Virus record (IMG/VR): IMGVR_UViG_3300044641_002038
Coordinates: 1 to 26,313 of that record
Strand: one strand, 5' to 3'
DNA length: 26,313 nt
DNA from: a virus
The stretch's first letter is position 1. Every line of letters starts with the position of its first letter. The notes under the pieces were generated by a model. The model worked only from the letters and a program-made list of their open reading frames with translations, made no database searches and had not been told where the DNA came from. The position numbers and the translations under genes were made by a program. Shown in pieces: positions 14,805 through 26,313 of this stretch.

Positions 14805-15164
14805 TTAGAGAAGGCGCTCCAATTGTGCTTCGGTTGGTATGGGAACGTCAACAGGCCAGGTTCCCGCGTCGGTCAGCGCCTGGACGGTCTTCATGTGCGC
14901 TAGCACCCAGGCTTGCTGCCGCTCTCGCTTTGACCACTTGGCGCCCTGGTCGATGTCGTAATGGCAGGACATGCACAGCGCGGCCACCAGGTTGTCGTCG
15001 GCCTTGATGCCGCGGCCCTTGCCGCCGCCCCAATTAGTGTGCGCCGCCTGAACCATGTGCGGGTTTCCGCAAAACTGGCACGGCAGTTCGGCGACCAGGC
15101 GCAGCAGCTTTTTCGACCGAATATACTGATGTTTGGGAAGTTTGTAATGTTTGGAAATTTCCAT
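14805..15164 (-). CDS. HNH/NinG-like zinc nuclease, 119 aa
   Basis: Residues 29-32 (CxxC in PCQFCGNP), His42 (VQAAHTNW), and CMSCH at 64-68 form a zinc-bound HNH-type core; the GGGKGRGIKADDNLVAALC stretch is the usual pattern of DUF1364/DUF968-like phage nucleases. In lambdoid phages such nucleases lie in the nin region and help process recombination intermediates, consistent with NinB next door. I chose ATG 15164 with AAAGACAG upstream rather than a start inside ninB. The product is small but complete in motif terms. Confidence 0.8.
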   Translation of the reverse strand: MEISKHYKLPKHQYIRSKKLLRLVAELPCQFCGNPHMVQAAHTNWGGGKGRGIKADDNLVAALCMSCHYDIDQGAKWSKRERQQAWVLAHMKTVQALTDAGTWPVDVPIPTEAQLERLL

Positions 15165-15187
15165 AATCTGTCTTTTGCGCCAAACAC

Positions 15188-15589
15188 TCACGCGTCGATT
15201 CCCTTTTCCGCGCACCAGGCTAACAGCCATTCAATAAATTCGGTGGCGTCCGGGATTGTGAATTTGTGGGTTTGCCAGCCCAGCTGCACCACCCGCTGAC
15301 CGTCCAGGCTGGGCGCCACCTTGCCGATCTTGCGGTCGGTTTCGTGTGCCCACTGGTCAATCAACAGGCGTTTCCAATCATCAGCCGACCAGGTAGACCC
15401 AGCCGCCCGCATCGCCAGGTAAATTTGGTGGATGATGGCGTGGAACATGTCGTTTTGGTCGGATGACCTGGTGGCCCGCTTAATCTCCAGGCGCATTTTG
15501 TTTCCGGCCATCAGGTTGGCTTTGACATCGGGCCAAATGTTGTCCATCAGCACCTTGGCCTGTTGCGGGTTGTGAAGGTCATAAATCAT
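15188..15589 (-). CDS. ninB: NinB recombination protein, 133 aa
   Basis: NinB (lambda Orf) binds single-stranded DNA and helps load RecA-like or annealing proteins. The segment LEIKRATRSSDQNDMFHAIIHQIYLAM at about 34-60, then SADDWKRLLIDQWAHE, is the conserved family pattern ('R..R.S.xQNxxxHA..', 'WK.ll...'). Length is close to lambda NinB (146). The ATG at 15589 has GGAAGG 6 nt upstream; the longer reading is not needed. It lies between the 44-aa membrane protein and the HNH nuclease, as in nin regions. Confidence 0.85.
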   Translation of the reverse strand: MIYDLHNPQQAKVLMDNIWPDVKANLMAGNKMRLEIKRATRSSDQNDMFHAIIHQIYLAMRAAGSTWSADDWKRLLIDQWAHETDRKIGKVAPSLDGQRVVQLGWQTHKFTIPDATEFIEWLLAWCAEKGIDA

Positions 15590-15713
15590 CAGAACCTTCC
15601 CAGGCCCACAAAGCCACCGCGAACACCGCAAAACACAGCAGGAACCAAAACGCCATGTCATCGGACATGTTCAGGCTTTTCCACCTTTCCAAATCGACCA
15701 GGTGTTTGTTCAT
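15579..15713 (-). CDS. Tiny one-TM protein, 44 aa
   Basis: ATG 15713 (overlapping the VRR-NUC stop as ATGA, with GGGGGTGA just upstream) to TGA 15579 encodes a short polar N-terminus (MNKHLVDLERWKSLNMSDD) and one strongly hydrophobic segment (MAFWFLLCFAVFAVALWAW) ending in EGSDDL. It overlaps ninB by 11 nt. A small inner-membrane protein fits; role unknown. Confidence 0.65.
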   Translation of the reverse strand: MNKHLVDLERWKSLNMSDDMAFWFLLCFAVFAVALWAWEGSDDL

Positions 15714-16000
15714 TTCATCACCCCCAACATTCGAAGCGCGGCATCAGGCCCGTCGACCACGGCAAGCGGGCCACCACGCCAAGCCCCATGCCACTTCAGC
15801 TGGTCTTCGGTCAGGCGTCTTTCCGAAGGCGGTTTGCGACCGTCTTTAACTTCAAGCAAAAGGGTTTTGCCCTGGAAACCCACCAGCAAATCAGGGACGC
15901 CTTTGCCAACTGCCGCCAAAGTCTGTACTGAAGCCCCAGCGGCCCGTAGTGCTTCAACCACTTGTTCTTGATTTGCATCAACTTTTGCCGCCCGTCTCAT
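15710..16000 (-). CDS. VRR-NUC domain nuclease, 96 aa
   Basis: GKGVPDLLVG (Asp37), TLLLEVKDG (Glu50, Lys52), the PPSERRLTEDQLKWH segment and the final helix give the complete PD-(D/E)xK fold of the VRR-NUC family. Stand-alone viral members cut branched DNA such as Holliday junctions. Length fits the family (90-120 aa). It overlaps the upstream gene by 23 nt and the small membrane gene by 4 nt. It probably works with NinB and the HNH nuclease on recombination intermediates. Confidence 0.88.
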   Translation of the reverse strand: MRRAAKVDANQEQVVEALRAAGASVQTLAAVGKGVPDLLVGFQGKTLLLEVKDGRKPPSERRLTEDQLKWHGAWRGGPLAVVDGPDAALRMLGVMK

Positions 16001-16247
16001 TTTTGACCTTGTTCATATCGTCCCGCAACATACGCGCTGCACCAGGGCCGCGGGCTTTCTCGATTTTGTCGATCATCTGCGCCCACCAGGCATTCGCCAG
16101 CCGTGTCCCGTGTTCCCGCTGGTAAGTCTTCCAACGGCGAAACCATTCCCTGGCTTCGCATTCCCGCCGCCAGGCTTCCGACCAGGTGGGTTTCTCGCCA
16201 TCCTGCAAGGTCGCCTGTTGCGACAAGGGCGTCGGAAATTTGGTCAT
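15978..16247 (-). CDS. Small phage protein with Trp/Arg-rich core, 89 aa
   Basis: The product starts MTKFPTPLSQQATLQDGEKP and has TWSEAWRRECEAREWFRRW, then KIEKARGPGAARMLRDDM. The 'W.EAWRxECEAR' and 'RGxxAAxxLRxD' pattern recalls small DUF7696-like phage proteins. A GGAAGG site lies 12 nt upstream of ATG 16247, somewhat far. A longer overlapping frame from ATG 16308 (stop 15997) has the better ribosome binding site but mostly unconvincing composition; see findings. Function unknown. Confidence 0.65.
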   Translation of the reverse strand: MTKFPTPLSQQATLQDGEKPTWSEAWRRECEAREWFRRWKTYQREHGTRLANAWWAQMIDKIEKARGPGAARMLRDDMNKVKNETGGKS

Positions 16248-16304
16248 AACTTGAAATTTGGCCTTCCAGCAAAGAATTTAAAAGTTTGTTGCCTTCATTT
16301 CTGG

Positions 16305-16547
16305 TCATTGCTGCCCCCTTGCGCGGATGGCGTCGGCGCACCATTGACTTGCAACCCGCTCCGCTATATCAGCAGGCCAAGCGTACTTGGCGTTAATATC
16401 TTCACACACCCTTGCGCACGCCTCGCGCTCGGCTGCGGCGACAAGGGCGGCGAAGCGTTCAAGCTGGCCCTCCCAGCATGTCCAACCAAGTCCGTACTGG
16501 GCAATGCCCGCCTTCCGCGCCATGCGGATGATGTCGTCTTTAGTCAT
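16305..16547 (-). CDS. Small Burkholderiales-phage-type protein, 80 aa
   Basis: The protein has the pattern MTKDDIIRMARKAGI near its start, ERFAALVAAAEREACARVCEDI in the middle and AIRARGQQ at the end. I recognise this as a common small prophage protein of Comamonadaceae and relatives, often found with the upstream type of gene. It is mainly helical and has no known function. The start overlaps the preceding stop by 4 nt (ATGA). Confidence 0.8.
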   Translation of the reverse strand: MTKDDIIRMARKAGIAQYGLGWTCWEGQLERFAALVAAAEREACARVCEDINAKYAWPADIAERVASQWCADAIRARGQQ

Positions 16548-16975
16548 GCCCCACCCCCGATCCCGTGGGCGCGCTCGATGGCGCGTGCCAAATTAAAAAC
16601 GCCACTTACCTCATACGGCTCTGGTTGATAGAACAAGTGCGTGTCTGCAAGTTTTTGAATCTCCTCATCCGTCAGCGGCTGGCGCTGGGGCGGGGCGGCT
16701 AGTGAGGCAGGCGACAAGTCGCCAAAAAGGGCTGCATAGGCATCAATCGTTGCAGCAATATGTTTCTCTGTTGGCTCGATACCCGGGCGGTATCGGCGGC
16801 AGAATTTAATTGCCTCTTCGTGGGTGAGAAATGATCCCACCGGCTCCTGCCGCTCGGCCTGCTCAATGGCGAGGCGCAGGGCGGCGACCTCTCGGTCAAA
16901 CTCCCCAGCAAAGATGGAGTCTTCGTGGTTCATCCTCTCAAAAGTTTCCAGCGCCTGCTTCATTACGTCGATCAT
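16544..16975 (-). CDS. Conserved phage protein, 143 aa
   Basis: The N-terminus is helical (MKQALETFERMN, then ALRLAIEQAERQEPVG), a linker around residues 90-100 is Ala/Pro/Gln-rich, and QPLTDEEIQKLADTHLF begins the C-terminal part, which ends in ARAIERAHGIGGG. The 'RLAIEQAE...EP' and 'PLTDEEI' pieces are common in prophage proteins of Burkholderiales. No catalytic motif is visible. It overlaps both neighbours by 4 nt, so the four genes 15978-17379 form a tight translational unit. Confidence 0.75.
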   Translation of the reverse strand: MIDVMKQALETFERMNHEDSIFAGEFDREVAALRLAIEQAERQEPVGSFLTHEEAIKFCRRYRPGIEPTEKHIAATIDAYAALFGDLSPASLAAPPQRQPLTDEEIQKLADTHLFYQPEPYEVSGVFNLARAIERAHGIGGGA

Positions 16976-17379
16976 TTCTGCATCCTCATCTTTTCAGTCA
17001 ATTCCCGCAGCTTCGCCATCGCTTCGGCCTTGGCCTTTTCTGTTGCAATTTTTTCGTGCAAGGTCGGTTGCCGCGTGATGACCGAATGCGGCCTGTCAGG
17101 AATCCGCGGGCCATCGTTCAGCAGCTTTTTGAACGCCAGGGCCGACGGCGGCCGGTCTGGGTTCATGTGCTGCAAGGCATAGTCCAGTTTCGGTTTGTAG
17201 GTCAGCATGCGCCCGCATTCTTCAGCCCATACCTGGCGCACCAGCTGGTGATCGACGCCTTCCCAATGCCGAACAAAGACGGCCCCGTAAATCGCGCCCA
17301 TCCTGGCAAAGATGTAATCCAGGCCTTCATCAATCGCGCAAAAGTCCTGGTCGCGGTATTCACTTGAGTAGCTGGACAT
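16972..17379 (-). CDS. Replication-associated (P-like) protein, 135 aa
   Basis: I chose ATG 17379, which has GGAGG 8 nt upstream; a GTG three codons earlier sits too close to that site. The central part (FARMGAIYGAVFVRHWEGVDHQLVRQVWAEECGRM, DYALQHMNPDRPPSALAFKKLL) resembles the small domain of prophage proteins found directly after DUF1376 genes, in which 'RPPxxxEFxxLL' is usual. The C-terminal ~35 residues are charged (EKIATEKAKAEAMAKLREL). By position it corresponds to lambda P, a helicase-loader, but I cannot confirm that activity from the sequence. Confidence 0.7.
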   Translation of the reverse strand: MSSYSSEYRDQDFCAIDEGLDYIFARMGAIYGAVFVRHWEGVDHQLVRQVWAEECGRMLTYKPKLDYALQHMNPDRPPSALAFKKLLNDGPRIPDRPHSVITRQPTLHEKIATEKAKAEAMAKLRELTEKMRMQK

Positions 17380-18085
17380 TTTTGCCACCTCCGATCAATC
17401 CGCGGGTTAACCCTTGCATCAAGTCGCGGTTGCGCTCCCCAACGTTCTTGGCCTGTTTTTCAGCGACCCAATCGGCCTTGAACCCACGCCAGCCCCGGGC
17501 GACACATTCAGCCAGGGCGTTTTCCAGCGACCAACCCGCTTTTTGGGCCTCCTGGGCGATTTTTTTGACCACGGTAGGGGTTACCACAGCCCTGGATGCT
17601 TTTCGCTGTTGCAGGAACGATTCCCAGACTTCCTGGGAAACGCCGTCAGGCGCAGCGGTGACAACCGCTTTATTCTTTGTTTGGTTGTTGGTTAGTGGTT
17701 GTTGGTTAGTGGTTAGTTGCACATCGGTTGAACTGTTGTTCAACACCTGTTCAACACCTGTTGCGCTGCTGTTCTTCCGTCGTTCAGCGGATGCTCGACC
17801 GGCGTTGGATTTTTTCTTCAGAAATGCGTGGTATTCCTGAATTTCCTGGTCGCACCGCGTGTGATGCCAGCCGTTTTCGGCCAGCCAAAAGAACGATTCC
17901 AGCAGCAGTTCCGTTTCTTCCACGGTCGCGCCAATCTGAAACGCCAGCAGCTTGCTGTCAGGCTTCAGCGGTTTTTCGTTGTCGTAGTACATCCACAACA
18001 GCCGCAAATAGGCCATTGTTTGGCTGTCGGTCAGCCTGGCGGTGGCCTTGATGAAGTCACCAATGTGATGTTGGTAGTAATGCAA
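17360..18085 (-). CDS. DUF1376 (YdaU-type) replication protein, 241 aa
   Basis: The N-terminus (HYYQHHIGDFIKATARLTDSQTMAYLRLLWMYYDNEKPL) is the DUF1376 pattern, a winged-helix-like domain used by lambdoid phages in place of O. A low-complexity linker rich in Thr, Asn and Gln (about 105-138) joins it to a C-terminal domain ending in GWRGFKADWV, also typical of the family. The start is TTG at 18085: AAGGGG lies 7 nt upstream, no ATG fits, and the family always begins within a residue or two of the Tyr-Tyr. It probably binds the origin and recruits the helicase. The linker DNA contains a 14-bp tandem repeat (17682-17716). Confidence 0.85.
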   Translation of the reverse strand: MHYYQHHIGDFIKATARLTDSQTMAYLRLLWMYYDNEKPLKPDSKLLAFQIGATVEETELLLESFFWLAENGWHHTRCDQEIQEYHAFLKKKSNAGRASAERRKNSSATGVEQVLNNSSTDVQLTTNQQPLTNNQTKNKAVVTAAPDGVSQEVWESFLQQRKASRAVVTPTVVKKIAQEAQKAGWSLENALAECVARGWRGFKADWVAEKQAKNVGERNRDLMQGLTRGLIGGGKNVQLLK

Positions 18086-18158
18086 TCCCAGCCCCTTTTT
18101 CTCCCACCCAAAAGGAAATCGCGGCAGGCGGGGTGGGTTCGCTTTTCGGTTGGCTCAT
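18057..18158 (-). CDS. Possible 33-aa ORF overlapping the DUF1376 start
   Basis: ATG 18158, preceded by GGAAG, opens a 33-codon frame (MSQPKSEPTPPAAISFWVG and onward) that ends at 18057, 28 nt inside the DUF1376 gene. It could couple translation to the TTG start. The product has no recognisable family and the frame may be chance. Confidence 0.3.
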   Translation of the reverse strand: MSQPKSEPTPPAAISFWVGEKGAGIALLPTSHW

Positions 18159-18189
18159 GACTTCCAACCTAGCCGGATTCCAAACCATT

Positions 18190-18348
18190 CTAGCCCTTGA
18201 ACCATTTCGGGCGCAACGCCCGCAGCTGCCAAACCCTAGCCTGGGGAATCTGCTTGCCCCATTGGCTGACAGCTGCGCGTGTGATGCCCAGCAGTTCGGC
18301 CAGCGCCTTCGCTGACCCGGCTTTTTCAATTGCTTGCGCTTTGTCCAT
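18190..18348 (-). CDS. cro: Cro-like repressor, 52 aa
   Basis: ATG 18348 to TAG 18190 encodes a small helix-turn-helix protein: MDKAQAIEKAGSAKALAELL, then GITRAAVSQWGKQIPQARVWQLRALRPKWF. The 'SAxALAxLLGITRAAVSQWGK.IP..R...L' pattern is that of P22 Cro-type proteins; length 52 is close to P22 Cro (61). It is the first gene of the leftward early operon, directly downstream of promoter P_R. The predicted transcription start is the A of its ATG, so its mRNA is probably leaderless. It most likely binds the GTTAAGC-type operators of this region and lowers early transcription. Confidence 0.85.
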   Translation of the reverse strand: MDKAQAIEKAGSAKALAELLGITRAAVSQWGKQIPQARVWQLRALRPKWFKG

Positions 18349-18383
18349 CTTCCGATGTTAAGCCACCTTGCGGCAGCTGTCAA
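18348..18383 (-). promoter_or_regulatory. P_R promoter of cro, leaderless
   Basis: Reading leftward, TTGACA (18383-18378), a 17-nt spacer, TAACAT (18360-18355), and then exactly six bases before the cro ATG at 18348. The predicted start of transcription (7 nt after the -10) is the A of that ATG. The spacer and -10 carry operator O1. Confidence 0.8.
18357..18372. promoter_or_regulatory. Operator-like site O1
   Basis: GTTAAGCCACCTTGCG has a perfect left arm (GTTAAGC) and a poor right arm compared with the consensus GTTAAGC-N2-GCTTAAC. It covers the -10 and spacer of P_R, so binding there would block cro. Confidence 0.6.
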
Positions 18384-18403
18384 CGGGGTCAAATCCCGAC
18401 AAA

Positions 18404-18419
18404 GTTAAGGGGGCTTTAC
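18404..18419. promoter_or_regulatory. Operator-like site O2
   Basis: GTTAAGGGGGCTTTAC matches the consensus palindrome in 6 of 7 positions on each arm. It lies between P_R and the rightward promoter P_A, like the middle operator of lambdoid control regions. Confidence 0.6.
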
Positions 18420-18428
18420 AAATAGTTG

Positions 18429-18464
18429 TTGCAATGCCTGTTTAGTTGGCTTAACATTCAGTCA
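18429..18464 (+). promoter_or_regulatory. Rightward early promoter P_A
   Basis: TTGCAA (18429-18434), 17-nt spacer, TAACAT (18452-18457), predicted start at A18464 in CATGCC. The TGGCTTAACAT around the -10 is identical to that of P_R on the other strand. It serves the 55-aa gene and probably the whole plus-strand operon. Confidence 0.75.
18440..18455. promoter_or_regulatory. Operator-like site O3
   Basis: GTTTAGTTGGCTTAAC has a perfect right arm and 5 of 7 matches on the left. It overlaps the -10 box of rightward promoter P_A. Confidence 0.6.
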
Positions 18465-18505
18465 TGCCGTAGCGAATTGCAAGCGGTCTTTTAAAGGAAA
18501 TCAAA
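18464..18505 (+). other. Conserved 5' leader with terminal hairpin (copy A)
   Basis: The predicted transcript starts AUGCCGUAG, an AUG-Pro-stop minimal frame. GCCG (18466-18469) can pair with CGGT (18484-18487), an arm lying just before CTTTTA. Compared with copies B and C, the fourth pair is G-C instead of C-G. AAAGGAAATCAAA then leads into the ATG at 18506. Confidence 0.6.
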
Positions 18506-18673
18506 ATGGAAAATCAAGCACTCATCCCGAACGCAAACTGGCAAACCCAGCAACGCGGAACCAATGACCAGGAATATCAAATTTACCTGGCATGCGCCGA
18601 CAACGGCCAGGGGGGCGACATCACACGCGGCGGCGCCCCTCTCCTAACTTACGAAGAATGGATGGCCGCGTAA
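18506..18673 (+). CDS. Small hypothetical protein, 55 aa
   Basis: First gene of the rightward early operon, with AAAGGAAA upstream of ATG 18506. The product starts MENQALIPNANWQTQQRG, has a single Cys, a Gly/Asp-rich middle (DNGQGGDITRGGAPLL) and ends TYEEWMAA. The 'LTYEEWMA' ending occurs in some small prophage proteins, but I cannot name a function. Unlike lambda, no cI-type repressor occupies this place. It is followed after 5 nt by promoter P_B. Confidence 0.7.
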   Translation: MENQALIPNANWQTQQRGTNDQEYQIYLACADNGQGGDITRGGAPLLTYEEWMAA

Positions 18674-18678
18674 AAATG

Positions 18679-18715
18679 TTGACAGCCCGTGTTAAGCGGG
18701 CTTACAATCAAACCA
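18679..18715 (+). promoter_or_regulatory. Rightward early promoter P_B
   Basis: TTGACA (18679-18684), 18-nt spacer, TACAAT (18703-18708), predicted start A18715 at CATGCCC. It carries operator O4 across spacer and -10. Confidence 0.75.
18691..18706. promoter_or_regulatory. Operator-like site O4
   Basis: GTTAAGCGGGCTTACA has a perfect left arm and 5 of 7 matches on the right arm. It covers the spacer and -10 of P_B. Confidence 0.6.
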
Positions 18716-18746
18716 TGCCCTAACGGGTCTTTTAAGGAGAATCAAG
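18715..18746 (+). other. Conserved 5' leader with terminal hairpin (copy B)
   Basis: The transcript would begin AUGCCCUAACGGGUCUUUUA: GCCC pairs with GGGU over a UAAC loop, leaving only two unpaired bases at the 5' end. AUG-CCC-UAA is a minimal start-stop frame. AAGGAG then lies 8 nt before ATG 18747. Confidence 0.6.
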
Positions 18747-19013
18747 ATGGTCAAGATGATGAAGTTCTACGTTACCAACGGCGTCGAAAAGGCCCGTGTC
18801 TGGTACAGCCGCGGCAACCTGGTTGATGGCCGTGATTGCGTCACGATCTACGCCAAGGATTACACCGGCGCCCTGGGCCGCGTGTTTGCCGATCAGTCGG
18901 CGCCCTACGAAAACAACACCGACATGATGACCGACTACTTCGAAAAGGGTCGGGTTCGCGTGTTTCCCGATAGTCCGCTGTGGGCCGACGCTTGTGCGCG
19001 GGCCGTTCGTTGA
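18747..19013 (+). CDS. Conserved small prophage protein, 88 aa
   Basis: The start has a strong AAGGAG site in leader B. The product (FYVTNGVEKARVWYSRGNLVDGRDCVTIYAKDY, then FADQSAPYENNTDMMTDYFEKGRVRVFPDSPLW) is a compact alpha/beta protein, probably one domain, without catalytic motifs. The 'ARVxYSxxNxxDGRxCVTIYAK' pattern is common in prophages of Burkholderiales as a hypothetical protein. Two alternative ATGs lie three and four codons in. Its own operator-bearing promoter suggests that its dose is controlled separately. Confidence 0.75.
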   Translation: MVKMMKFYVTNGVEKARVWYSRGNLVDGRDCVTIYAKDYTGALGRVFADQSAPYENNTDMMTDYFEKGRVRVFPDSPLWADACARAVR

Positions 19014-19023
19014 AGGGGGCGCC

Positions 19024-19122
19024 ATGAACCGCGAACCGACCGATTGGGAAGTGGTACTGATGGCGCTGGTCGCGGCGCCCGTCCTGTACGTTTTACTGTG
19101 GCTTGCAATGGCCCTGTTTTAA
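19024..19122 (+). CDS. Tiny one-TM protein, 32 aa
   Basis: GGGGGCGCC precedes ATG 19024. The product has a polar start (MNREPTDWEV) and one hydrophobic segment (VLMALVAAPVLYVLLWLAMALF) running to the end. It fits a single-pass inner-membrane peptide. It lies 10 nt after the previous stop. Function unknown. Confidence 0.6.
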   Translation: MNREPTDWEVVLMALVAAPVLYVLLWLAMALF

Positions 19123-19132
19123 GGGAAACGAC

Positions 19133-19300
19133 ATGGAATTGAAAATCACCAAAGTGCATCGGGGCGGCGTGACGTACTACGCCACCACCATCGGCGGCGT
19201 CTACATCGAACGCCGCACCCGGGAAGAACTGCGAACCGCGCTGGCCGTGCGCGGCAACCTTGGAAAAATTTTTGCGAAATGTGTTGACGGCGCAAGTTAA
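19133..19300 (+). CDS. Small beta-rich protein, 55 aa
   Basis: ATG 19133 has AAGGG 7 nt upstream. The product (MELKITKVHRGGVTYYATTIGG, then YIERRTREELRTALA) looks like a small beta sheet followed by one helix. No family recognised. The 3' end contains the -35 and part of the operator of promoter P_C (19284-19320), so coding sequence and promoter overlap; its TAA stop lies within operator O5. Confidence 0.65.
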   Translation: MELKITKVHRGGVTYYATTIGGVYIERRTREELRTALAVRGNLGKIFAKCVDGAS

Positions 19301-19320
19301 GCCAGCTTATAATTCACTCA
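19284..19320 (+). promoter_or_regulatory. Rightward early promoter P_C
   Basis: TTGACG (19284-19289), 18-nt spacer, consensus TATAAT (19308-19313), predicted start A19320. It overlaps the end of the 55-aa gene and carries operator O5. Confidence 0.75.
19296..19311. promoter_or_regulatory. Operator-like site O5
   Basis: GTTAAGCCAGCTTATA has a perfect left arm and 5 of 7 matches on the right arm. It lies across the spacer and -10 of P_C and contains the stop codon of the preceding gene. Confidence 0.6.
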
Positions 19321-19354
19321 TGCCCTCACGGGTCTATTACGAAAGGAAATTGAA
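19320..19354 (+). other. Conserved 5' leader with terminal hairpin (copy C)
   Basis: The transcript begins AUGCCCUCACGGGUCUAUUA, with GCCC/GGGU pairing over a UCAC loop. Unlike copies A and B, the AUG at +1 opens a 12-codon frame (MPSRVYYERKLK) whose TGA overlaps the next ATG (ATGA at 19355), which could couple translation. GAAAGGAAAT lies upstream of ATG 19355. Confidence 0.6.
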
Positions 19355-19609
19355 ATGAATGCAAACATCACCAGCCGCGACAGCCAAGTTTATGGCTGCA
19401 ACTTCCAGGAATTCCTGGCCGGTGTCACCGATTCCATCACCTACAAACTCAGCGGCGCCAACATGATCGTTGCGGGCCTGATGTCGGATGCCCAAGAACA
19501 AATGGCGTTCGGCGACACCGAAGGCGCCCGCCAGACCCTGAACCGCGCCAAGGGCGTTTTGTTTGCGGTTATGGACGGCCAACTGAACGCTGGCGGGGTG
19601 GCAGCATGA
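19355..19609 (+). CDS. Small hypothetical protein, 84 aa
   Basis: AAAGGAAATTGAA precedes ATG 19355. The protein starts MNANITSRDSQVYGCNFQEFL and has two likely helices (TYKLSGANMIVAGLMSDAQEQM and TEGARQTLNRAKGVLFAVMDGQL). It looks soluble and mainly helical. No family recognised. It overlaps the next gene by 4 nt (ATGA). Confidence 0.7.
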   Translation: MNANITSRDSQVYGCNFQEFLAGVTDSITYKLSGANMIVAGLMSDAQEQMAFGDTEGARQTLNRAKGVLFAVMDGQLNAGGVAA

Positions 19610-19809
19610 ACGCCACTACGAACCCCAACCAGATTGCAACCTTCACCAACCCCGAACTTGGCATTGCGTCCACTGTGACCGCCACGCAAAGGGGTTTTGC
19701 GGTCACGCTGTTGGACACCGACGCCGAAATGATTGTCGGAACCTACATTTACCCGACCGCCATGCTGGCCCAGGCCATCAACAAAGCCCAGGAACTGGCG
19801 AATGTCTAA
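19606..19809 (+). CDS. Small hypothetical protein, 67 aa
   Basis: Start overlaps the previous stop (ATGA). The sequence (NQIATFTNPELGIASTVTATQ, then FAVTLLDTDAEMIVGTYIYPTAMLAQAINKAQELA) suggests three or four beta strands and a C-terminal helix. Small proteins of this shape occur in early operons of prophages. Function unknown. It overlaps the following 36-aa gene by 8 nt. Confidence 0.7.
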   Translation: MNATTNPNQIATFTNPELGIASTVTATQRGFAVTLLDTDAEMIVGTYIYPTAMLAQAINKAQELANV

Positions 19810-19912
19810 CTGGCCCTTCCCCCCGCCTGGGGGGCCTGTCCCGCTGACGCCCGCGGAAGAACGCGAATACCAACGTCAGCAGCGCAACAAACTTCCCGCG
19901 GCACCGTTTTGA
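19802..19912 (+). CDS. Tiny Pro-rich protein, 36 aa
   Basis: ATG 19802 to TGA 19912 encodes MSNWPFPPPGGPVPLTPAEE followed by REYQRQQRNKLPAAPF. The N-terminal half is Pro-rich, the rest charged. It begins inside the end of the previous gene, a common coupling pattern in this operon. It may be a real small protein or a chance frame. Confidence 0.5.
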   Translation: MSNWPFPPPGGPVPLTPAEEREYQRQQRNKLPAAPF

Positions 19913-19924
19913 AAGGAACGCACC

Positions 19925-20056
19925 ATGTCCAAACTGCCCTACAACATCGAAGGCCCGTACACGCGCACCAGGCGCCTGACCACCTTCCAAAAAATATGGA
20001 TAACGCTTGTCGTTGCCGTATTCGCCGCCATCGCCGTGATGGCCCTTTCCAACTAA
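19925..20056 (+). CDS. Small one-TM protein, 43 aa
   Basis: ATG 19925 has GAAAGGAACGCACC upstream. The basic N-terminus (PYTRTRRLTTFQK) is followed by one membrane segment (IWITLVVAVFAAIAVMAL), so the N-terminus should lie in the cytoplasm. Function unknown; probably an inner-membrane peptide. Confidence 0.65.
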   Translation: MSKLPYNIEGPYTRTRRLTTFQKIWITLVVAVFAAIAVMALSN

Positions 20057-20069
20057 CCAGGAACAACAA

Positions 20070-20672
20070 ATGGAACCCATGACTTTCGGCAAAATCGCAT
20101 CGGCGCTGGTCAAGGCGCAAAAAGCATTTGGCCCCGCCCTGAAGACATCCAGCAACCCGCATTTTCGTTCGCGTTATGCCGACCTGTCGGCATGCGTTGA
20201 AGCCGTCATCGACGCGCTCAACGACAACGGCATCGCCATGATGCAACGCGTGACGCCATCGGACAACGGCGTGATTGTGGAAACCGTGCTGATTCACGAA
20301 TCGGGCGAAACGATCACCAACGGCCAGCTGCACGTTCCGGCCACCAAACACGATGCCCAGGGCTACGGCTCCGCGCTGACGTATGCCCGCCGTTACAGCC
20401 TCATGGCCGCTTGCGGGATAGCCCCTGAAGATGATGACGGCAACGCCGCCAGCAGGCGCCCGACCGCACCAACCGCACCAGCTGTGCCCACGCCTGACAT
20501 CACCGATTTCCTGTCGGCCATCCAAGCCAGCGCCAACAGCGACGAATTGGCCCGCGTCTACAAAGAAGCATTCGACGCATGCCAAGGCAACCAGGCGCTG
20601 CAAGCCAAAGTGATGGCCGCAAAAAAAGCCCGCGTTGATCGCGCCAAAAAGGAAAAGGCAAATGACAAATAA
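20070..20672 (+). CDS. erf: ERF family single-strand annealing protein, 200 aa
   Basis: ERF proteins anneal complementary single strands during phage recombination. The N-terminal domain has KIASALVKAQKAFGPALKTSSNPHFRSRYADL (about 8-39), and AQGYGSALTYARRYSLMAACGI (96-117) is the family signature. Asp/Glu-rich EDDDGN, then a Pro/Ala/Thr linker, separate it from a C-terminal helical domain (VYKEAFDACQGNQAL) as in P22 Erf (204 aa). It stands upstream of a YqaJ-type exonuclease, making a two-component recombination system. The ribosome binding site (CCAGGAAC) is acceptable. Confidence 0.9.
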   Translation: MEPMTFGKIASALVKAQKAFGPALKTSSNPHFRSRYADLSACVEAVIDALNDNGIAMMQRVTPSDNGVIVETVLIHESGETITNGQLHVPATKHDAQGYGSALTYARRYSLMAACGIAPEDDDGNAASRRPTAPTAPAVPTPDITDFLSAIQASANSDELARVYKEAFDACQGNQALQAKVMAAKKARVDRAKKEKANDK

Positions 20673-20883
20673 ACAAGACATTGATCTTCTTTTTTGTGTC
20701 AACAGCGCAGATTTAGAAGCATTGCAAGATGCTCAGTTCACGCTTGAAGCCATTAAAAATGCAGACCCTGGCACTTACGACGGAATCATCGATCAATCTT
20801 TACGATTGATTAATCAGGCGCTCAACATGAGTTGTACAGATGCAATTGAAAGAATTGCCGATAAATTGGGGGTGGAAGCATGA
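20662..20883 (+). CDS. AT-rich small protein of unknown origin, 73 aa
   Basis: ATG 20662 overlaps the end of erf and has AAGGAAAAGGCAA just upstream. The product (MTNKQDIDLLFCVNSADLEAL, then QFTLEAIKNADPGTYDGIIDQSLRLINQALNMSCTD) is acidic and mainly helical. Its codons are clearly more A/T-rich than those of erf or the exonuclease, so it was probably acquired separately. No function is recognised. Confidence 0.7.
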   Translation: MTNKQDIDLLFCVNSADLEALQDAQFTLEAIKNADPGTYDGIIDQSLRLINQALNMSCTDAIERIADKLGVEA

Positions 20884-21134
20884 AATCTTCACGATTGCGC
20901 GGAAAAGTAAATACAGAACACCCAATGCATAAACTTTGGGAGGCAGCATCAGACATTGTTGGAAGAACAGTTCAGGCTTACAACAACGCCAAAGTACCCG
21001 TGCCGCATGAAATTGCGATTCCTGTATGGGTTGATGGCGATCCTGTCATGAAAATAACTATTGAAATTGGCTCAAAAACCACCGCAAATTACGCCATTTT
21101 TAAAGCGCAAAATAAAGGAGATAAAAATGTCTGA
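20880..21134 (+). CDS. AT-rich small protein, 84 aa
   Basis: Starts at ATG 20880 with a 4-nt overlap (ATGA) on the previous gene and shares its A/T-rich codon use. The product begins MKSSRLRGKVNTEHPMHKLW and contains EIAIPVWVDGDPVMKITIEIG, which looks like two to three beta strands. It overlaps the exonuclease start by 8 nt. Unknown function; the pair is likely a small inserted cassette. Confidence 0.65.
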   Translation: MKSSRLRGKVNTEHPMHKLWEAASDIVGRTVQAYNNAKVPVPHEIAIPVWVDGDPVMKITIEIGSKTTANYAIFKAQNKGDKNV

Positions 21135-21753
21135 AGAAATCGAACAACGAACCGACGAATGGTTTGCCGCCCGCCTGGGCAAAGTCACCGCGTCCAAGGT
21201 GGCCGATGTGATGGCCCGCACAAAGACGGGTTACAGCGCCAGCCGCGAAAACTACATGGCCCAGCTGGTGGTCGAACAAATCACCGGCACCCGCCAGGAA
21301 TCGTTCACCAATAGCGCCATGCAATGGGGCACCGACCAGGAACCATTTGCCCGCGGCGCATATGAAGCGGCCACCGGCAACATGGTCGAAGAAATCGGGT
21401 TTGTGAATCACCCGGCCATTGAAATGGCTGGCGCCTCACCTGACGGCTTGGTCGGCGACGATGGCTGCGTGGAAATCAAATGCCCGAACACGGCCACCAT
21501 GATTGAAACGCTGCTGACCGGCACCATCCCGCAAAAGTATTTCGCGCAAATGCAGTTTCAAATGGCTTGCACTGGCCGCGCCTGGTGCGATTACGTGGTG
21601 TTCGACCCGCGCATGCCCGCCAAGGCCCAGCTGTTCATCAAACGTGTTCCGCGTGACGATACGTTCATTGCTGACATGGAAGCGGAAATTAAAAAGTTCC
21701 TGGCCGAAACCGCGGTCAAGGTCGATCAACTGAAACAAATCATTGGGGAATAA
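21127..21753 (+). CDS. YqaJ/lambda-type exonuclease, 208 aa
   Basis: A 5'-3' exonuclease that exposes single strands for the ERF protein. The YqaJ family motifs are present: QRTDEWFAARLGKVTAS (7-23), WGTDQEPFAR (67-76, Glu72), AGASPDGLVGDDGCVEIKCP (101-120, with Asp106, Glu116 and Lys118 as the PD-(D/E)xK core), and a late QMQFQMACTGRAWCDYVVF. Length matches lambda Exo (226). The start (ATG 21127) has AAAGGAG 7 nt upstream, so a longer reading into the AT-rich region is unlikely. Confidence 0.93.
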   Translation: MSEEIEQRTDEWFAARLGKVTASKVADVMARTKTGYSASRENYMAQLVVEQITGTRQESFTNSAMQWGTDQEPFARGAYEAATGNMVEEIGFVNHPAIEMAGASPDGLVGDDGCVEIKCPNTATMIETLLTGTIPQKYFAQMQFQMACTGRAWCDYVVFDPRMPAKAQLFIKRVPRDDTFIADMEAEIKKFLAETAVKVDQLKQIIGE

Positions 21754-21756
21754 ATC

Positions 21757-22032
21757 ATGTCGAAAATTACTAAAGAAATCACCGCCATCACCGGCAACTA
21801 CACCAATGCCCAGGGCCAGCAGAAAAACCGCTACCAGCGCATCGGCTCAATCATTGAAACGAAGAATGGCCCCATGCTGAAACTCGACGTCATCCCGCTG
21901 AAGGAAGGCGGCTGGGACGGCTGGGCTTACATCAACGAACCCCGCGAACGCGACGAACAGCCCCAGCGGTCGCGCCAGGCCCCGCAAAACAGCGGGTTTG
22001 ATGACATGGACAACGATCTGCCGAACTTCTAA
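21757..22032 (+). CDS. Small SSB-like protein, 91 aa
   Basis: Three to four predicted strands (ITAITGNYTNAQG, RYQRIGSIIE, MLKLDVIPL, GWDGWAYIN) resemble a minimal OB-type fold, followed by a flexible Arg/Gln-rich tail. The last ten residues (DDMDNDLPNF) match the acidic tip of bacterial SSB (consensus DDDIPF), which binds partner proteins. It lies 3 nt after the exonuclease. Together with ERF and the exonuclease it would give a full recombination set: resection, annealing, strand protection. The OB fold is inferred, not proved. Confidence 0.65.
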   Translation: MSKITKEITAITGNYTNAQGQQKNRYQRIGSIIETKNGPMLKLDVIPLKEGGWDGWAYINEPRERDEQPQRSRQAPQNSGFDDMDNDLPNF

Positions 22033-22041
22033 GGGGGCATC

Positions 22042-22191
22042 ATGGGTCACATCATTGGCTGGCTTTGCTTCTTTGCCTGGTTGACCCACATCTTCACCTG
22101 CTTCGCGCAGGGATTGTGGGGGTTCCTGTTGGCTGGCGCGATTTTCTTCCCCATCGGAATCCTGCATGGGTTCTATGTTTGGATTAGTTAG
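22042..22191 (+). CDS. Small two-TM protein, 49 aa
   Basis: GGGGG precedes ATG 22042. Two hydrophobic segments (HIIGWLCFFAWLTHIFTCF and GLWGFLLAGAIFFPIGIL) leave a short loop. The 'THIFxC' and 'GAIFFPIGIxHG' pattern is a common small membrane protein in Burkholderiales prophages near recombination genes. Function unknown. Confidence 0.7.
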   Translation: MGHIIGWLCFFAWLTHIFTCFAQGLWGFLLAGAIFFPIGILHGFYVWIS

Positions 22192-22200
22192 GGGGACGCC

Positions 22201-22722
22201 ATGCAACTGGATTTTTTTGGCGACGAAGGGAAGTATTTAGACCAGCTGAAAAAGAACTGGCGCGACACCATCGAAGGGGACGGCGGGCATTGCCCGTGCT
22301 GCGGCAAGTGGGGAAAAATCTCGCCGTTCCCAATGACGGAAATCATGGCCCTGGGGCTGCTGTGGCTGTCCAGGGCGACCGCTGATGCTGATGGGTGGGT
22401 GGATGTACCTAACACGGCCCCGCGCTGGATGCTGCGCGGGAAAACCTACACCACCATGCACCGCTGGGGTTTGATTGAAAAGGCCGACCGGCATGAAGAC
22501 CAGACCAAAAAGTCCGACGGGCTGTGGCGCGTGACCGCAAAGGGGCTGCACTTCCTATGCGGCACCACCAGCATCCCCAAAAAGGTCTTCATCTACAACA
22601 ACACAATCGAAGGCTGGTCGGATGAAACCGTTTATTTCCGCGACTGCTTTGGCAAGCATTTCGACTATGAAGCGGTGATGGCCGAAAACTTCAACATCAA
22701 CGCAATCAAAGTCGGGACGTAA
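22201..22722 (+). CDS. Conserved phage protein with CxxC, winged-helix-like, 173 aa
   Basis: Near residue 31 HCPCCGKWG gives a CxxC site. The middle (MALGLLWLSRATADADGWVDV, then PRWMLRGKTYTTMHRWGLIEKAD, DGLWRVTAKGLHFLCG) has the shape of a winged helix with a late wing. The closing part (VFIYNNTIEGWSDETVYFRDCFG) is typical of this prophage family in Burkholderiales. It may bind DNA, but no function is established. It ends 1 nt before the oppositely oriented endolysin gene, with no visible terminator between them. Confidence 0.75.
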   Translation: MQLDFFGDEGKYLDQLKKNWRDTIEGDGGHCPCCGKWGKISPFPMTEIMALGLLWLSRATADADGWVDVPNTAPRWMLRGKTYTTMHRWGLIEKADRHEDQTKKSDGLWRVTAKGLHFLCGTTSIPKKVFIYNNTIEGWSDETVYFRDCFGKHFDYEAVMAENFNINAIKVGT

Positions 22723-22723
22723 A

Positions 22724-23062
22724 TTACACGTTCCGTTCGAAATGCGGGCAGTCGACCAGGCTTTTGAAATTGCCGCCCCATCGGTTCTTGGGGTGTAGGC
22801 TTTCCCAATATGCCCCCAGGGGCGCAATCGTGGCCTTGTCCCAAACGATGGCGCCGTCCTTAAAGAAATTCAGGTCAATCGCGCATCGCTTCAGGTGAAT
22901 GCTGTTCATGGTCTTTGACCGGCCAGCCTTGAAATGAATGGCTTGCTGTTCAGGTGTGCGGGCCAGTTCGCCGCCCGTGACCATAAAGCCCTGTTCGGTG
23001 GCATACTGGATCAGCTTGCATGCGTCCAAGAGGAATGCGGCTTGCTCTTTTGAAAGGCTCAT
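22724..23062 (-). CDS. M15-type peptidase endolysin, 112 aa
   Basis: Zn-peptidase of the VanY/L-Ala-D-Glu peptidase group that cuts cell-wall stem peptides. SIHLKRCAIDLNF (54-66) carries His56 and Asp63, Glu87 lies in LGAYWESL, and DCPHFE (104-109) carries His107: the complete metal-binding set. Size (112 aa) is slightly short compared with T5 endolysin (137), and no signal peptide is seen, so a holin must release it. The holin gene directly upstream supports this. Confidence 0.9.
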   Translation of the reverse strand: MSLSKEQAAFLLDACKLIQYATEQGFMVTGGELARTPEQQAIHFKAGRSKTMNSIHLKRCAIDLNFFKDGAIVWDKATIAPLGAYWESLHPKNRWGGNFKSLVDCPHFERNV

Positions 23063-23583
23063 TTGTCTTTCCCCTTATTCCGCATTTCCATGACCTTTTC
23101 GACGGTGCGCCCGCCGAAGTACGCGGTCATCACCAGCATGCCCCACTGGCCCAGCAGGGTCACGTAGGCTTCGGCAACCCTGTACCCGCCGCCATCCAGC
23201 AAGGCAAACAAGGTGTAAGCCCCCAACAGGTAAATCAGCGTCATGGGCCGGATGTTCTTTGACAGCCAGGAATCCGAAGTCATGTCGGCTTTCCAGCGGT
23301 CGCTGATGTTGTTTTCCTGGTTGGCTTGCGCGGCCAGCAGCGCGGCCAGTTCTTCCTGCTCTAGCCTGGCTTTTTCAATGCCCAATTCGATCAGGCGTTC
23401 TTCGTGTTCAAACTGAAGACGCCGCAACGTCACCACTTCTTCGGGGCTGGGGTTATCAGAAATCTTGATGCCCAGCTTTTCTTCAACAACTTGTTTGCCT
23501 TTGGCCTGGATGGCGCTTGCCAGCAAGCCCAAACCGTTTTCAGCAAGTGTGCCCAGCAAAGCGCCGACGATTGGAATCATCAT
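23059..23583 (-). CDS. 3-TM holin (GTA_holin_3TM type), 174 aa
   Basis: The N-terminal segment (PIVGALLGTLAENGLGLLASAIQ) is hydrophobic, a coiled-coil stretch follows (RLQFEHEERLIELGIEKARLEQEELAALLAAQ), and two more hydrophobic segments close the protein (SWLSKNIRPMTLIYLLGAYTLFALL and LLGQWGMLVMTAYFGGRTVEK). The 'SWLSKNIRPMTLIYL' and 'YFGGRTVEK' pieces are hallmarks of the 3-TM holin family. It forms pores for endolysin export and overlaps the endolysin gene by 4 nt. Confidence 0.88.
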   Translation of the reverse strand: MMIPIVGALLGTLAENGLGLLASAIQAKGKQVVEEKLGIKISDNPSPEEVVTLRRLQFEHEERLIELGIEKARLEQEELAALLAAQANQENNISDRWKADMTSDSWLSKNIRPMTLIYLLGAYTLFALLDGGGYRVAEAYVTLLGQWGMLVMTAYFGGRTVEKVMEMRNKGKDK

Positions 23584-23987
23584 TCCCCCCTTTTGGTTGT
23601 AAACGATTCATCGCCTTTTTTGACCACAACCTTGTCGCCCTCAACAGAAACCGACATTGGGTCACGATCAGCCATGCGATCCAGGCGCTCGATCAATTGC
23701 TTCATGACTTCAAATTCTGGCTTGTCTTGCTTGGGCGTTGCACCGGCAATTCCGTTCAACATTGAAATCAACGCGACCAATGCAGAACCCAGCAGCCCCA
23801 TGACGGCGGCAATTTTGCCTTCCTCAAGAAACAGCGAAGCCCCCACGCCAATCACCACAATCAGCGTGATGTAGAACAACCCTTGTCGGCCAATCGCTTT
23901 GCCCGCCACCTCTTTTGCTGTGGTTTGCGCTTCGATTTTTTCGATTTCAATTTTTGCCAGCAATGCAGCTTTTTCGTGTTCTTCCAT
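23580..23987 (-). CDS. Two-TM lysis-associated membrane protein, 135 aa
   Basis: After a charged helix (EKAALLAKIEIEKIEAQTTAKEV) come two membrane segments (GLFYITLIVVIGVGASLFL and IAAVMGLLGSALVALISML), then a basic/acidic C-terminal part (KQLIERLDRMADRD, VSVEGDKVVVKKGD). ATG 23987 has AGGGG nearby. Located between the coiled-coil/TM gene and the holin, it likely helps lysis, as a second holin, antiholin or spanin-like part. No definite family recognised. Confidence 0.7.
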   Translation of the reverse strand: MEEHEKAALLAKIEIEKIEAQTTAKEVAGKAIGRQGLFYITLIVVIGVGASLFLEEGKIAAVMGLLGSALVALISMLNGIAGATPKQDKPEFEVMKQLIERLDRMADRDPMSVSVEGDKVVVKKGDESFTTKRGE

Positions 23988-23995
23988 CTCGCCCC

Positions 23996-24220
23996 TCACT
24001 TATGAAAATAGCTGGAAAAAAAACCAATAGCGGATGAAATGGCCGACACCAGCGCCATGCCAGCCCAAAACCCACCGCGCCCCTGGTTGGCAAGGGCCAC
24101 CAGGTTTTCGATATGGCGCTCCATCTTGTCCATCTTGGCCTCCATCTGGTCGAAGCGGCGCTCGTAGTCTTCAACCTTTTGCCAGAGAACGCCGTATTTC
24201 ACTGGATCAATTTCAGCCAT
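23996..24220 (-). CDS. Coiled-coil/one-TM small protein, 74 aa
   Basis: A long heptad stretch (LWQKVEDYERRFDQMEAKMDKMERHIENLV) is followed by a hydrophobic segment (FWAGMALVSAISSAIGFFSSYF), ending in His-Lys. This layout is like XhlA-type and other small lysis-cassette proteins. Its place at the head of the lysis genes agrees. The stop overlaps the region where the next gene begins. Role (anchoring or holin assistance) is inferred. Confidence 0.7.
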   Translation of the reverse strand: MAEIDPVKYGVLWQKVEDYERRFDQMEAKMDKMERHIENLVALANQGRGGFWAGMALVSAISSAIGFFSSYFHK

Positions 24221-24221
24221 T

Positions 24222-24965
24222 TCACGCCTTCATCACGTAAGCCAGGGCATAGTACGGCGGCAGGTTGGCGTTGACGCCAGACACACCAGCAGAATTGACG
24301 GTGGTAGAAGTTGCCACCGTAATGCCGGTCGTGGAAACGCCGGTATTTTCGTTCGGCAACGAAGAACCGCCCGTTCTCCCGAAAACAGAACCACCAGAAA
24401 CACTTGCCAACGGAACGGTGTGTGAGTGTCCCGGATCAGTAACAGAGGAAGTCGACGAAGCGGTGTGCGTGTGACTAACCACAATCGCATCAGTGGAACC
24501 GCCAGTTTGCGAAACGGAATAAGTGGAACCGGCGCCGACAATAAATCGGTCGCGCAAATCGGGGGTTCCATTGCTGCCGTCGCAAAGATACCAGCCCGTC
24601 GGGACAGACCCGATAGAACCATACCAAAGCGAAATCATGCCCGCGGGGATGGTGGTTCCCACCGCGGTTTGAACGCCGACAATTCCGTAAATGTTGTCGT
24701 AGGTTCCAATGGTCACGCCGCTGGAATCCTTCAGGACAAACTTATAAAAATACCCGTAGGTCAACCAAATTTCGGTGGCGCTGCGACCGCTGGAATCCAA
24801 CACGATGGGGTTGGCATTGGCAATCGTGCCGTTGATGTCGGTGTAAGTCGCAAGGGGGGTGCTGGAACCAGCCTGGTAGACATACAGCAGACCACCATTC
24901 AGCGGAATGCCGTTGTTGTCGAAAAACTGCTGGGCATTCCCAATTGGTGAAAGGTTGACGCTCAT
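24222..24965 (-). CDS. Tail fibre with collar domain, 247 aa
   Basis: The N-terminal part (LSPIGNAQQFFDNNGIPLNGGLLYVYQAGSSTPLATYTD, NPIVLDSSGR, EIWLTYGYFYKFVLKDSSG) is a conserved attachment domain of podovirus fibres. Residues ~103-150 (TTIPAGMISLWYGSIGSVPTGWYLCDGSNGTPDLRDRFIVG) are the phage tail-collar domain. A His-rich region (SHTHTASSTSS, PGHSHTV) and an ending LPPYYALAYVMKA complete it. GAGGAAACC precedes the ATG. A second collar-type fibre sits at 16-600; they differ in N-terminal part, so they probably have different attachment sites. Confidence 0.85.
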   Translation of the reverse strand: MSVNLSPIGNAQQFFDNNGIPLNGGLLYVYQAGSSTPLATYTDINGTIANANPIVLDSSGRSATEIWLTYGYFYKFVLKDSSGVTIGTYDNIYGIVGVQTAVGTTIPAGMISLWYGSIGSVPTGWYLCDGSNGTPDLRDRFIVGAGSTYSVSQTGGSTDAIVVSHTHTASSTSSVTDPGHSHTVPLASVSGGSVFGRTGGSSLPNENTGVSTTGITVATSTTVNSAGVSGVNANLPPYYALAYVMKA

Positions 24966-24985
24966 ATGGGTTTCCTCATTTCAAT

Positions 24986-26313
24986 TTATTGTTGGCCTTT
25001 TTTGCTGATGTCTTGCAGCGTAGACCCAGCGCCAGGCTCCAGTGCCCGCTTGACTTCGGCACGCTCTCGGGCGCCCTGGATGACGCGCCGCCCTTCGCTG
25101 CCCAGCGGGTAACCGATGGTCTTCAGGCCAATGACGTTTCCAGCCGTTTCCAGCCCGCCAGCGGCCTTGTTCGCCAGATACCCCACCAGCGTATTGCTGT
25201 TGTTCACAAACGCGCCACGGGGCTGGAATTGCGTGTAATTCGCCACGTTGCCCAGCGTCTTCAGCTGCAAACTGGTTTCTGGGTCAAAAATCGCCCCGAA
25301 ATTGTTGACATCATCCAGGCGTTTGATTGCCTTGTTGTAGTTGGCCTGGCTGAAGTTTCCTTTGCCGTCCACAATGCCAGCGCGGTCGGACAGCCAATTG
25401 ATGGTTCCAGCCTTGATGTGCTGATGCGCGGGGCTGTCGCGGCCCAGCGTTTGAATCATCGTGTTGATGTTTTTGTTGTGACCGCCAATGACGTATTTGT
25501 CGAAATACTTGTCGGCGGGCACAGTCTCATCAACCGCGGCTTTGTATGCGGGGTCTTTTCTCAGCGCCTCAAATCGTTCACGCGCCAGTGACCGGGCTTT
25601 ATCGGCCAGGGGCTTCAATGCAGCGGCTTGGCCTTGAATCGGCAGCTGCTCCATCGCATCGCGCACAATGCTTGCCGCGGTGGCCGCGTTGCCATCACCG
25701 GTGCGCTCGGCCTTGCGGATTTCTGCCGCCAGGTTGGTTCGCATGGCTTCGAACTGCTCAAACGTCATCGGCTCACCAGCCTTGAATCGCTCCAATTGCG
25801 ACCTGATGCTGGGCGACAGAAATTCTGTCTTCAGTTTTTTTGCCAGCATCGTGTCGGCGGTTCGTGCAATTGCCGCGCCGTCTACCGGGAATGACCCGCC
25901 GTTGGCGTCTTCCAGGGCCTTGTAGGCCGCGCTGATGGCTCCGCTTCGCTCACTGTCCAGGGTTCGGTACGCATCAATGATGGCCTGGCTGGAATCAATG
26001 GTCTTGGGCGCGTAAACGTCCGGCGCGGCGCGTTCACGAATGGCGGGCACGTTGTCCACCAGCGCCTGGTTTTGCTGCTGGAATCGGTAAGCAAACTCGG
26101 GGTTTCTGCCCCGCAAATTCTGCTCGTTCGAAATTTTCACCAGGTCACCGGTGGCCTGGCCTTCGGTCAGCCGTACCGGAACAGGCAAAGAATCGCCTTC
26201 CAGGTGGCGCAACACCACAGGCGTGTTCACCTTATCCAGCGGCATGTTGGAATACAGCTGCTGGAATTCAGGCGTGGCCCCGGTCAGGGCCTGTTGAATG
26301 ATGGTGGCATCAG
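24986..26313 (-). CDS. Ejection/internal virion protein, 5' truncated
   Basis: The frame is open to the right edge: in-frame codons before the first visible ATG (26245) read DATIIQQALTGATPEFQQLY, so the true start lies beyond the window. The visible part has repeated helices (DSSQAIIDAYRTLDSERSGAISAAYKAL, MTFEQFEAMRTNLAAEIRKAERTGDGNAATAASIVRDAM) and a Gly/Ala-rich, slightly amphipathic C-terminal region (VGYLANKAAGGLETAGNVIG). Large, helical, Ala-rich proteins at the end of the structural cluster and before fibres are usually DNA-ejection proteins. The role is inferred from features and place. Confidence 0.7.
   Translation of the reverse strand, partial: DATIIQQALTGATPEFQQLYSNMPLDKVNTPVVLRHLEGDSLPVPVRLTEGQATGDLVKISNEQNLRGRNPEFAYRFQQQNQALVDNVPAIRERAAPDVYAPKTIDSSQAIIDAYRTLDSERSGAISAAYKALEDANGGSFPVDGAAIARTADTMLAKKLKTEFLSPSIRSQLERFKAGEPMTFEQFEAMRTNLAAEIRKAERTGDGNAATAASIVRDAMEQLPIQGQAAALKPLADKARSLARERFEALRKDPAYKAAVDETVPADKYFDKYVIGGHNKNINTMIQTLGRDSPAHQHIKAGTINWLSDRAGIVDGKGNFSQANYNKAIKRLDDVNNFGAIFDPETSLQLKTLGNVANYTQFQPRGAFVNNSNTLVGYLANKAAGGLETAGNVIGLKTIGYPLGSEGRRVIQGARERAEVKRALEPGAGSTLQDISKKGQQ

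Follow-up and report, generated by a model that had tools for sequence, protein, structure and literature searches.

Stem-loops at the extreme 5' end of an mRNA are known to act as stabilizers in ompA, papA and engineered bla transcripts (Emory, Bouvet and Belasco 1992, reviewed in PMC3997798). A hairpin at the 5' end hinders conversion by RppH in E. coli and stabilizes bla mRNA (PMC3997798), while the RppH of B. subtilis requires at least 2 unpaired 5' nucleotides (PMC3997798, PMC4227774). What is known of 5'-terminal hairpins lengthening mRNA life has come for the most part from engineered constructs and a handful of E. coli genes. In phages, cluster K mycobacteriophages carry Start-Associated Sequences (SAS) and Extended SAS (ESAS) (PMC3203893, PMC12699233).

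We analyzed a viral record of IMG/VR, 26,313 bases long, from an uncultured phage, hereafter called the window. Its switch-like region is flanked on one side by a block of leftward genes and on the other by rightward genes encoding a YqaJ nuclease and an annealing protein of the Erf type. A divergent gene passes the Pfam cut-off as a P22 Cro-like regulator (PF14549, 49.8 bits versus a cut-off of 30.2), and to its right come 3 rightward promoters, every one with a short leader and then a small gene without assigned function behind it (Table 1). All 3 promoters overlap a palindrome close to GTTAAGCNNGCTTAAC, which is presumably bound by the Cro-like protein; allowing up to 3 mismatches, the palindrome matched 6 times in the window versus 0.58 expected, with 4 of the 6 in the switch-like region. 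P_B and P_C are the 2 best promoter-like sites in 15000-26313 (11 of 12 matches), and P_A has a weaker -35. Start sites throughout are predictions. The Cro-like gene itself is predicted to have a leaderless mRNA, its ATG being +1 of TTGACA-17-TAACAT-cggaag-ATG (window about 18192-18390, minus strand). Directly after this gene, at 18103-18179 on the minus strand, Rfam gave a match to the int-alpA RNA (RF02996) of 38 bits, above the gathering score.

Table 1. Positions of the promoters, operator-like sites, leaders and genes of the switch-like region in the window.
Feature	Position	Strand	Description
P_A	18429..18463	+	-35 TTGCAA; operator-like GTTTAGTTGGCTTAAC (18440-18455) overlaps -10 box TAACAT; TTGCAA-17-TAACAT-6 nt-ATGCCGTAGCGAATTGCAAGCGGTCTTTTA at 18464
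P_B	18679..18714	+	operator GTTAAGCGGGCTTA; TTGACA-18-TACAAT-6 nt-ATGCCCTAACGGGTCTTTTA at 18715
P_C	19284..19319	+	operator GTTAAGCCAGCTTA; TTGACG-18-TATAAT-6 nt-ATGCCCTCACGGGTCTATTA at 19320
Further operator-like site GTTAAGGGGGCTTTAC	18404..18419	.	between divergent promoters
Leader A	18464..18505	+	predicted start A(18464); stem GCCG(18466-18469)/CGGU; long loop UAGCGAAUUGCAAG; then CUUUUAAAGGA
Leader B	18715..18746	+	stem GCCC(18717-18720)/GGGU(18725-18728); UAAC tetraloop; CUUUUAAGGAG
Leader C	19320..19354	+	stem GCCC(19322-19325)/GGGU(19330-19333); UCAC tetraloop; CUAUUACGAAAGGA
Gene A	18506..18673	+	55 aa; Pfam and PHROG: no match
Gene B	18747..19013	+	88 aa; PHROG 18717 (function unassigned); homologs in 33 viral loci
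Gene C	19355..19609	+	84 aa; no family; homologs in at least 80 viral loci
Cro-like regulator, divergent	18192..18350 (approximate)	-	52 aa; P22_Cro 2.9e-13; YdaS 3.7e-10

The 3 leaders share one layout, AUGCC-hairpin-GGUCUWUUA-SD-start, with ATGCC beginning at the seventh base past the -10 box. A preliminary description of this DNA had predicted transcript starts at these ATGCC of P_A, P_B and P_C and had given the pairings, a CTTTTA or CTATTA after the stem and a larger loop in copy A than in copies B and C; its sequences, coordinates and pairings were found to be correct. The long-loop form of leader A has homologous counterparts in many contigs. RNAfold gave the expected stem from +3 in A, B and C (-6.9, -4.9 and -4.9 kcal/mol, respectively). 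Single-sequence folding of the 3 leaders was no better than chance (z 0.1-0.8), an equally stable 5' hairpin arose in 12-14% of shuffles, and the leader pattern had 2 matches versus 0.41 expected by chance. Therefore, the hairpins alone are not significant, and their significance comes from comparative data on related contigs. A search of Rfam 15 gave no family match at the leaders, even with E up to 5.

Homologs of genes B and C were gathered by protein similarity from viral contigs, and promoters were collected by operator and promoter pattern, leaving the leader unconstrained. One earlier leader-pattern scan had fixed the fourth pair as C-G and was thus unable to create G-C forms; a further scan, which fixed just ATGCC, GGTCT and part of the promoter, gave at least 119 stretches and raised the set to 152 distinct promoter-leaders. 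Results showed that more than 100 related viral contigs carry such leaders. Protein C had no relative among GTDB genomes by the protein-similarity method used and no match in the phage collection, where protein B had distant matches only (a Shewanella phage and a Variovorax phage, both without the leader); the 3 leader-pattern matches in GTDB genomes all looked like chance.

Applied to all collected loci, the operator/promoter rule gave 143 distinct promoter regions. Part of the loci had been gathered with the leader pattern, so the proportions below should not be read as unbiased for viruses in general. GCC was located at +3 in 111 of them and the same stem at +16/17 in 13; the last 19 regions, outside these 2 classes, were sorted by eye. 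Among those, 11 are divergent promoters where +1 coincides with the start codon of a small protein that appears Cro-like, the same leaderless arrangement as in the window, 4 are likely chance matches and 1 has the same stem at +4. Another one, MW202520 (Manatee Spring), combines the same operator type with a sequence-unrelated hairpin at +1, GUAGCA-AUU-UGCUAC, and 2 have no hairpin (L019 at 4192 and L151 at 7144). When folded, every distinct leader form among the 111 had its stem at +3 or +4. In 158 of the 161 promoter-linked copies, the bases of the stem from +4 to +6 were all Watson-Crick paired, and over the ensemble the mean unpaired probability was 0.98 and 0.97 at +1 and +2 and 0.20, 0.04, 0.06 and 0.06 at +3 to +6. 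Hairpin energies are weak, mostly -4.5 to -9.8 kcal/mol.

The covariation evidence comes from the fourth pair, G-C in copy A and C-G in copies B and C, for which the preliminary description had proposed covariation. As MAFFT on the bare leaders misaligned the 5' arms, we anchored the alignment at its left end on the -10 box and at its right end on the TCT motif, neither of which uses pairing. APC-corrected G was compared with a null of alignments simulated by IQ-TREE/AliSim on the maximum likelihood tree, which includes the stem columns, making the test conservative. In 93 distinct promoter-leaders, the pair +6:R4 was C-G in 62 and G-C in 31, with zero exceptions, and it alone exceeded 300 simulated alignments (G of 105.3 versus a simulated maximum of 92.7). 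In the set of 152, this pair was C-G in 100, G-C in 48, A-U in 1, G-U in 1 and mispaired in 2, and it was again the sole column pair beyond the null (170.6 versus a simulated maximum of 151.2 in 500 alignments, the next best observed pair reaching 45.5). Pairs 1 to 3 (G.U, C-G, C-G) are invariant in this set, by row selection or by nature, and give no signal for or against pairing. Pairs 5 and 6 gave no significant covariation in the anchored alignment, because the tetraloop forms have loop in those columns. Among the distinct hairpins, of which at least 64 are known, 62 of 64 keep the fourth pair intact. The covariation proposed from 3 copies thus holds in the related phages, and stem bases varying without pairing were looked for and not found.

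Beyond this pair, stems reach 5 to 7 pairs via matched changes (GCCGCA/UGCGGU, GCCGUU/AACGGU, GCCCUGA/UCGGGGU), and loops interchange among UMAC, GNRA and UNCG types: we found UAAC, UCAC, UUAC, UGAC, UAGC, UCGC, GAAA, GUAA, GCAA, UUCG, triloops and loops of 5-15 nt. With UUCG and many others among them, the loops argue for retention of stability and not of one particular loop. Relatives of gene C in other lineages have promoters of another kind, and the hairpins that occupy the same place there also differ. A second leader type (L061, L065, L022, L253) has A-CUGACA-CGU-UGUCAG, A-CUGCA-CUUU-UGCAG or A-CGGUC-ACUUGA-GACCG ahead of GGACAGCGAA, a third type has hairpins at +1 (AUGCCAACGAAAUUGUUCUUGGCAU, AUGCCACGAAAUUGUUCAUGGCAU, AUGGGCAGGG...UUCUCUGCACAU), and the sequence-unrelated hairpins starting at +1 or +2 include AUGCCAA/UUGGCAU. 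Two 5' nucleotides are unpaired in the window's leaders and one or none in the other types. That other lineages place unrelated hairpins at +1 or +2 is expected if the 5' end matters; taken with the covariation and the free exchange of loops, these hairpins indicate that in these sequences the RNA structure is kept for its shape and not for its sequence. We also considered whether identical hairpins are avoided within a genome, since copies were identical in 1 of 82 within-genome pairs (62 contig groups with at least 2 copies); this effect had P 0.0004-0.009 in a first set and P 0.077 in a larger set with promoter rank controlled, and it was set aside as weak.

The hairpin is not found everywhere. 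As a negative control, L272 carries about 15 TTGACACAAAT promoters with very short leaders and no 5' hairpins, and several other gene C relatives have no 5' hairpin, suggesting that the hairpin is a recurrent solution in some lineages and not a general requirement for phage early mRNAs. Scoring generic hairpins over 79 promoter clusters, a peak at +2 to +4 was visible, and small.

With moderate confidence, we consider that the best explanation is a 5'-terminal stabilizing hairpin joined to a compact ribosome-binding site (RBS), carried on promoter-leader cassettes under a Cro-type operator. Each cassette consists of a promoter overlapping the operator and of a predicted 5' UTR of about 32-42 nt, made of the 5'-terminal hairpin, a short U-rich strand and the Shine-Dalgarno/start region. 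The hairpin would act by its shape, leaving 0-2 unpaired 5' nucleotides, so that pyrophosphate removal by RppH and 5'-tethered attack by RNase E should be slow. As leaders of the window's type leave 2 free nucleotides, the minimum for B. subtilis RppH, the shield would weaken and not abolish processing. Where a promoter-linked copy has its stem at +3, a stretch of 14-23 nt (17-21 in most) separates the 3' foot of the stem from the start codon downstream. A bound 30S subunit extends to about -20, thus little free RNA would remain between hairpin and ribosome. By analogy, protecting the 5' end and abutting the upstream edge of the ribosome would then be the most likely function, by which the early mRNA may be stabilized while its RBS stays open. 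The architecture of the cassette, the covariation, the exchange of loops and stems and the position relative to the predicted start and to the start codon are directly observed; the actual 5' ends, the protection from RppH and RNase E and the gain in mRNA lifetime are what we infer. More doubtful is an extension of this reading, in which the 5' hairpins would be interchangeable parts that structurally cap the mRNAs of the entire Cro-operator early regulon, letting phage early mRNAs outlive those of the host during infection, with copies within a genome being kept different in sequence.

The main rival to 5'-end protection concerns translation. A hairpin at a fixed distance before the start would bound the RBS, keep it single-stranded and insulate it from upstream RNA, its 5' position being incidental. 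The narrow distance from stem to start codon is in agreement with this and looks similar in copies with the stem at +16/17 and in copies without a promoter, and other hairpins (GGGGCUACGGCCCC) stand just before the RBS in some promoterless intergenic regions. These copies bear on the proposal that the hairpin is 5'-terminal behind 2 unpaired bases: the stem stands at +3 of the predicted transcript in most copies, while in 13-14 copies an insert of 13-14 nt after the predicted start shifts it to +16/17 and 7 more copies are promoterless, so that 5'-terminality is not universal. The promoterless copies lie between genes, each behind a second hairpin of type GGGGCUUCGGCCCC (L003, L005, L011, L019, L115, L134, L152). 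On the other hand, unrelated leader types converge on +1 to +3 and not on one distance to the RBS, a second hairpin being nearer the RBS in family 3. Moreover, stems weakened to U.G pairs were 2 of 7 in promoterless copies versus 0 of 161 in promoter-linked ones, which hints, on small numbers, that constraint relaxes away from the 5' end. We regard translation insulation as unlikely to be the explanation by itself; it may act simultaneously with 5' protection.

We also observed a conserved GGGAACCGTA(C/G)TAGATGACAAC-type insert ahead of the hairpin after the first promoter of L004, L010, L011, L018, L035, L114, L144, L171 and L173. Intergenic hairpins of type GGGGCUACGGCCCC or GGGGCUUCGGCCCC are located just before an RBS or a promoterless leader, and between genes in L072, L076, L086 and L113.

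Very unlikely, in our view, is that an RNA-binding protein of phage or host binds the hairpin, for example as a boxB-like element of an antitermination system. The commonest tetraloops, UAAC, UCAC and GAAA, invite the comparison, as UMAC and GNRA loops share a common fold recognized by N peptides (phi21 boxB, PMC12550061). Loops nonetheless differ within one phage, including UCGC, AUCG, triloops, UUCG and loops of 7-15 nt. The stem GCCC/GGG is reminiscent of lambda boxB. A boxA-like match (YGCTCTTTA, up to 1 mismatch) was absent near 18400-19400, and the order would be reversed since CUUUUA is downstream of the hairpin. An Arg-rich N-like ORF was not seen in the early region, where ORFs with a Shine-Dalgarno have at most 4 Arg in their first 30 residues, N proteins being themselves widely divergent.

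Still less probable is a co-transcriptional role, where the nascent hairpin at +3 to +14 would aid promoter escape or prevent backtracking: the position is indeed fixed at the transcript start in most copies, yet the +16/17 and promoterless copies do not fit, and loops of 3-15 nt alter the folding time. We give very little credence to a second operator just past the start site, since the inverted repeat does adjoin the promoter but its invariant bottom G.U pair would be a mismatch in a DNA palindrome, its half-sites are spaced by 3-15 nt, its covarying pair changes freely and the promoter already has a suitable overlapping operator, GTTAAGCNNGCTTAAC. Control of the downstream gene by a leaderless start-stop uORF (AUG CCC UAA etc.) at the extreme 5' end is scarcely credible either. 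In its favor, most copies have AUG at +1, and a truly leaderless mRNA is predicted for the divergent cro-like gene; against it, several copies have ACG or AAG with the stem intact and the frame ends variously in UAA, UAG, UGA or a read-through to the start codon.

Compared with known systems, nut sites of the lambda type resemble these leaders in their small early-transcript hairpins with UMAC/GNRA loops and differ in that here the loops do not belong to one uniform class and the element adjoins the RBS. SAS and ESAS are likewise multi-copy phage elements with an inverted repeat and a variable spacer, and they lie immediately ahead of where non-structural genes start; ESAS, however, has 17-bp repeats, and the SAS 13-mer GGGATAGGAGCCC had no match in the window with up to 2 mismatches. 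The leader of T7 gene 10 also has a 5' hairpin, a U/A-rich spacer and a strong Shine-Dalgarno, a likeness in layout, and differs by its late promoter for T7 RNA polymerase and its longer spacer. Closest are the ompA, papA and bla stem-loops, which stand at or a few nucleotides from the 5' end, before an unstructured RBS, and where pairing appears more important than sequence. Here, the stem lies about 0-4 nt from the 5' end, by predicted start, in the 111 operator-defined promoters, and at +16/17 instead in 13, and the pairing of +6:R4 is what is conserved. Unlike these examples, the phage hairpin is part of a cassette repeated ahead of several early genes in one phage, all under the same type of operator; its stems are short (4-7 bp), the UTR is very short and the stabilization is predicted. 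In a limited search of the open-access literature we found no description of such a leader. In conclusion, the element as we read it works like the known 5'-terminal stabilizing hairpin, and its multi-copy, operator-linked version in uncultured phages is new. These contigs provide natural evidence, from more than 100 viral sequences, that what selection preserves at the start of early mRNAs is the shape of a hairpin, even as its stem, its loop and indeed its full sequence are replaced. With short synthetic leaders, the relation of 5'-end structure to early expression in phages can now be tested directly.
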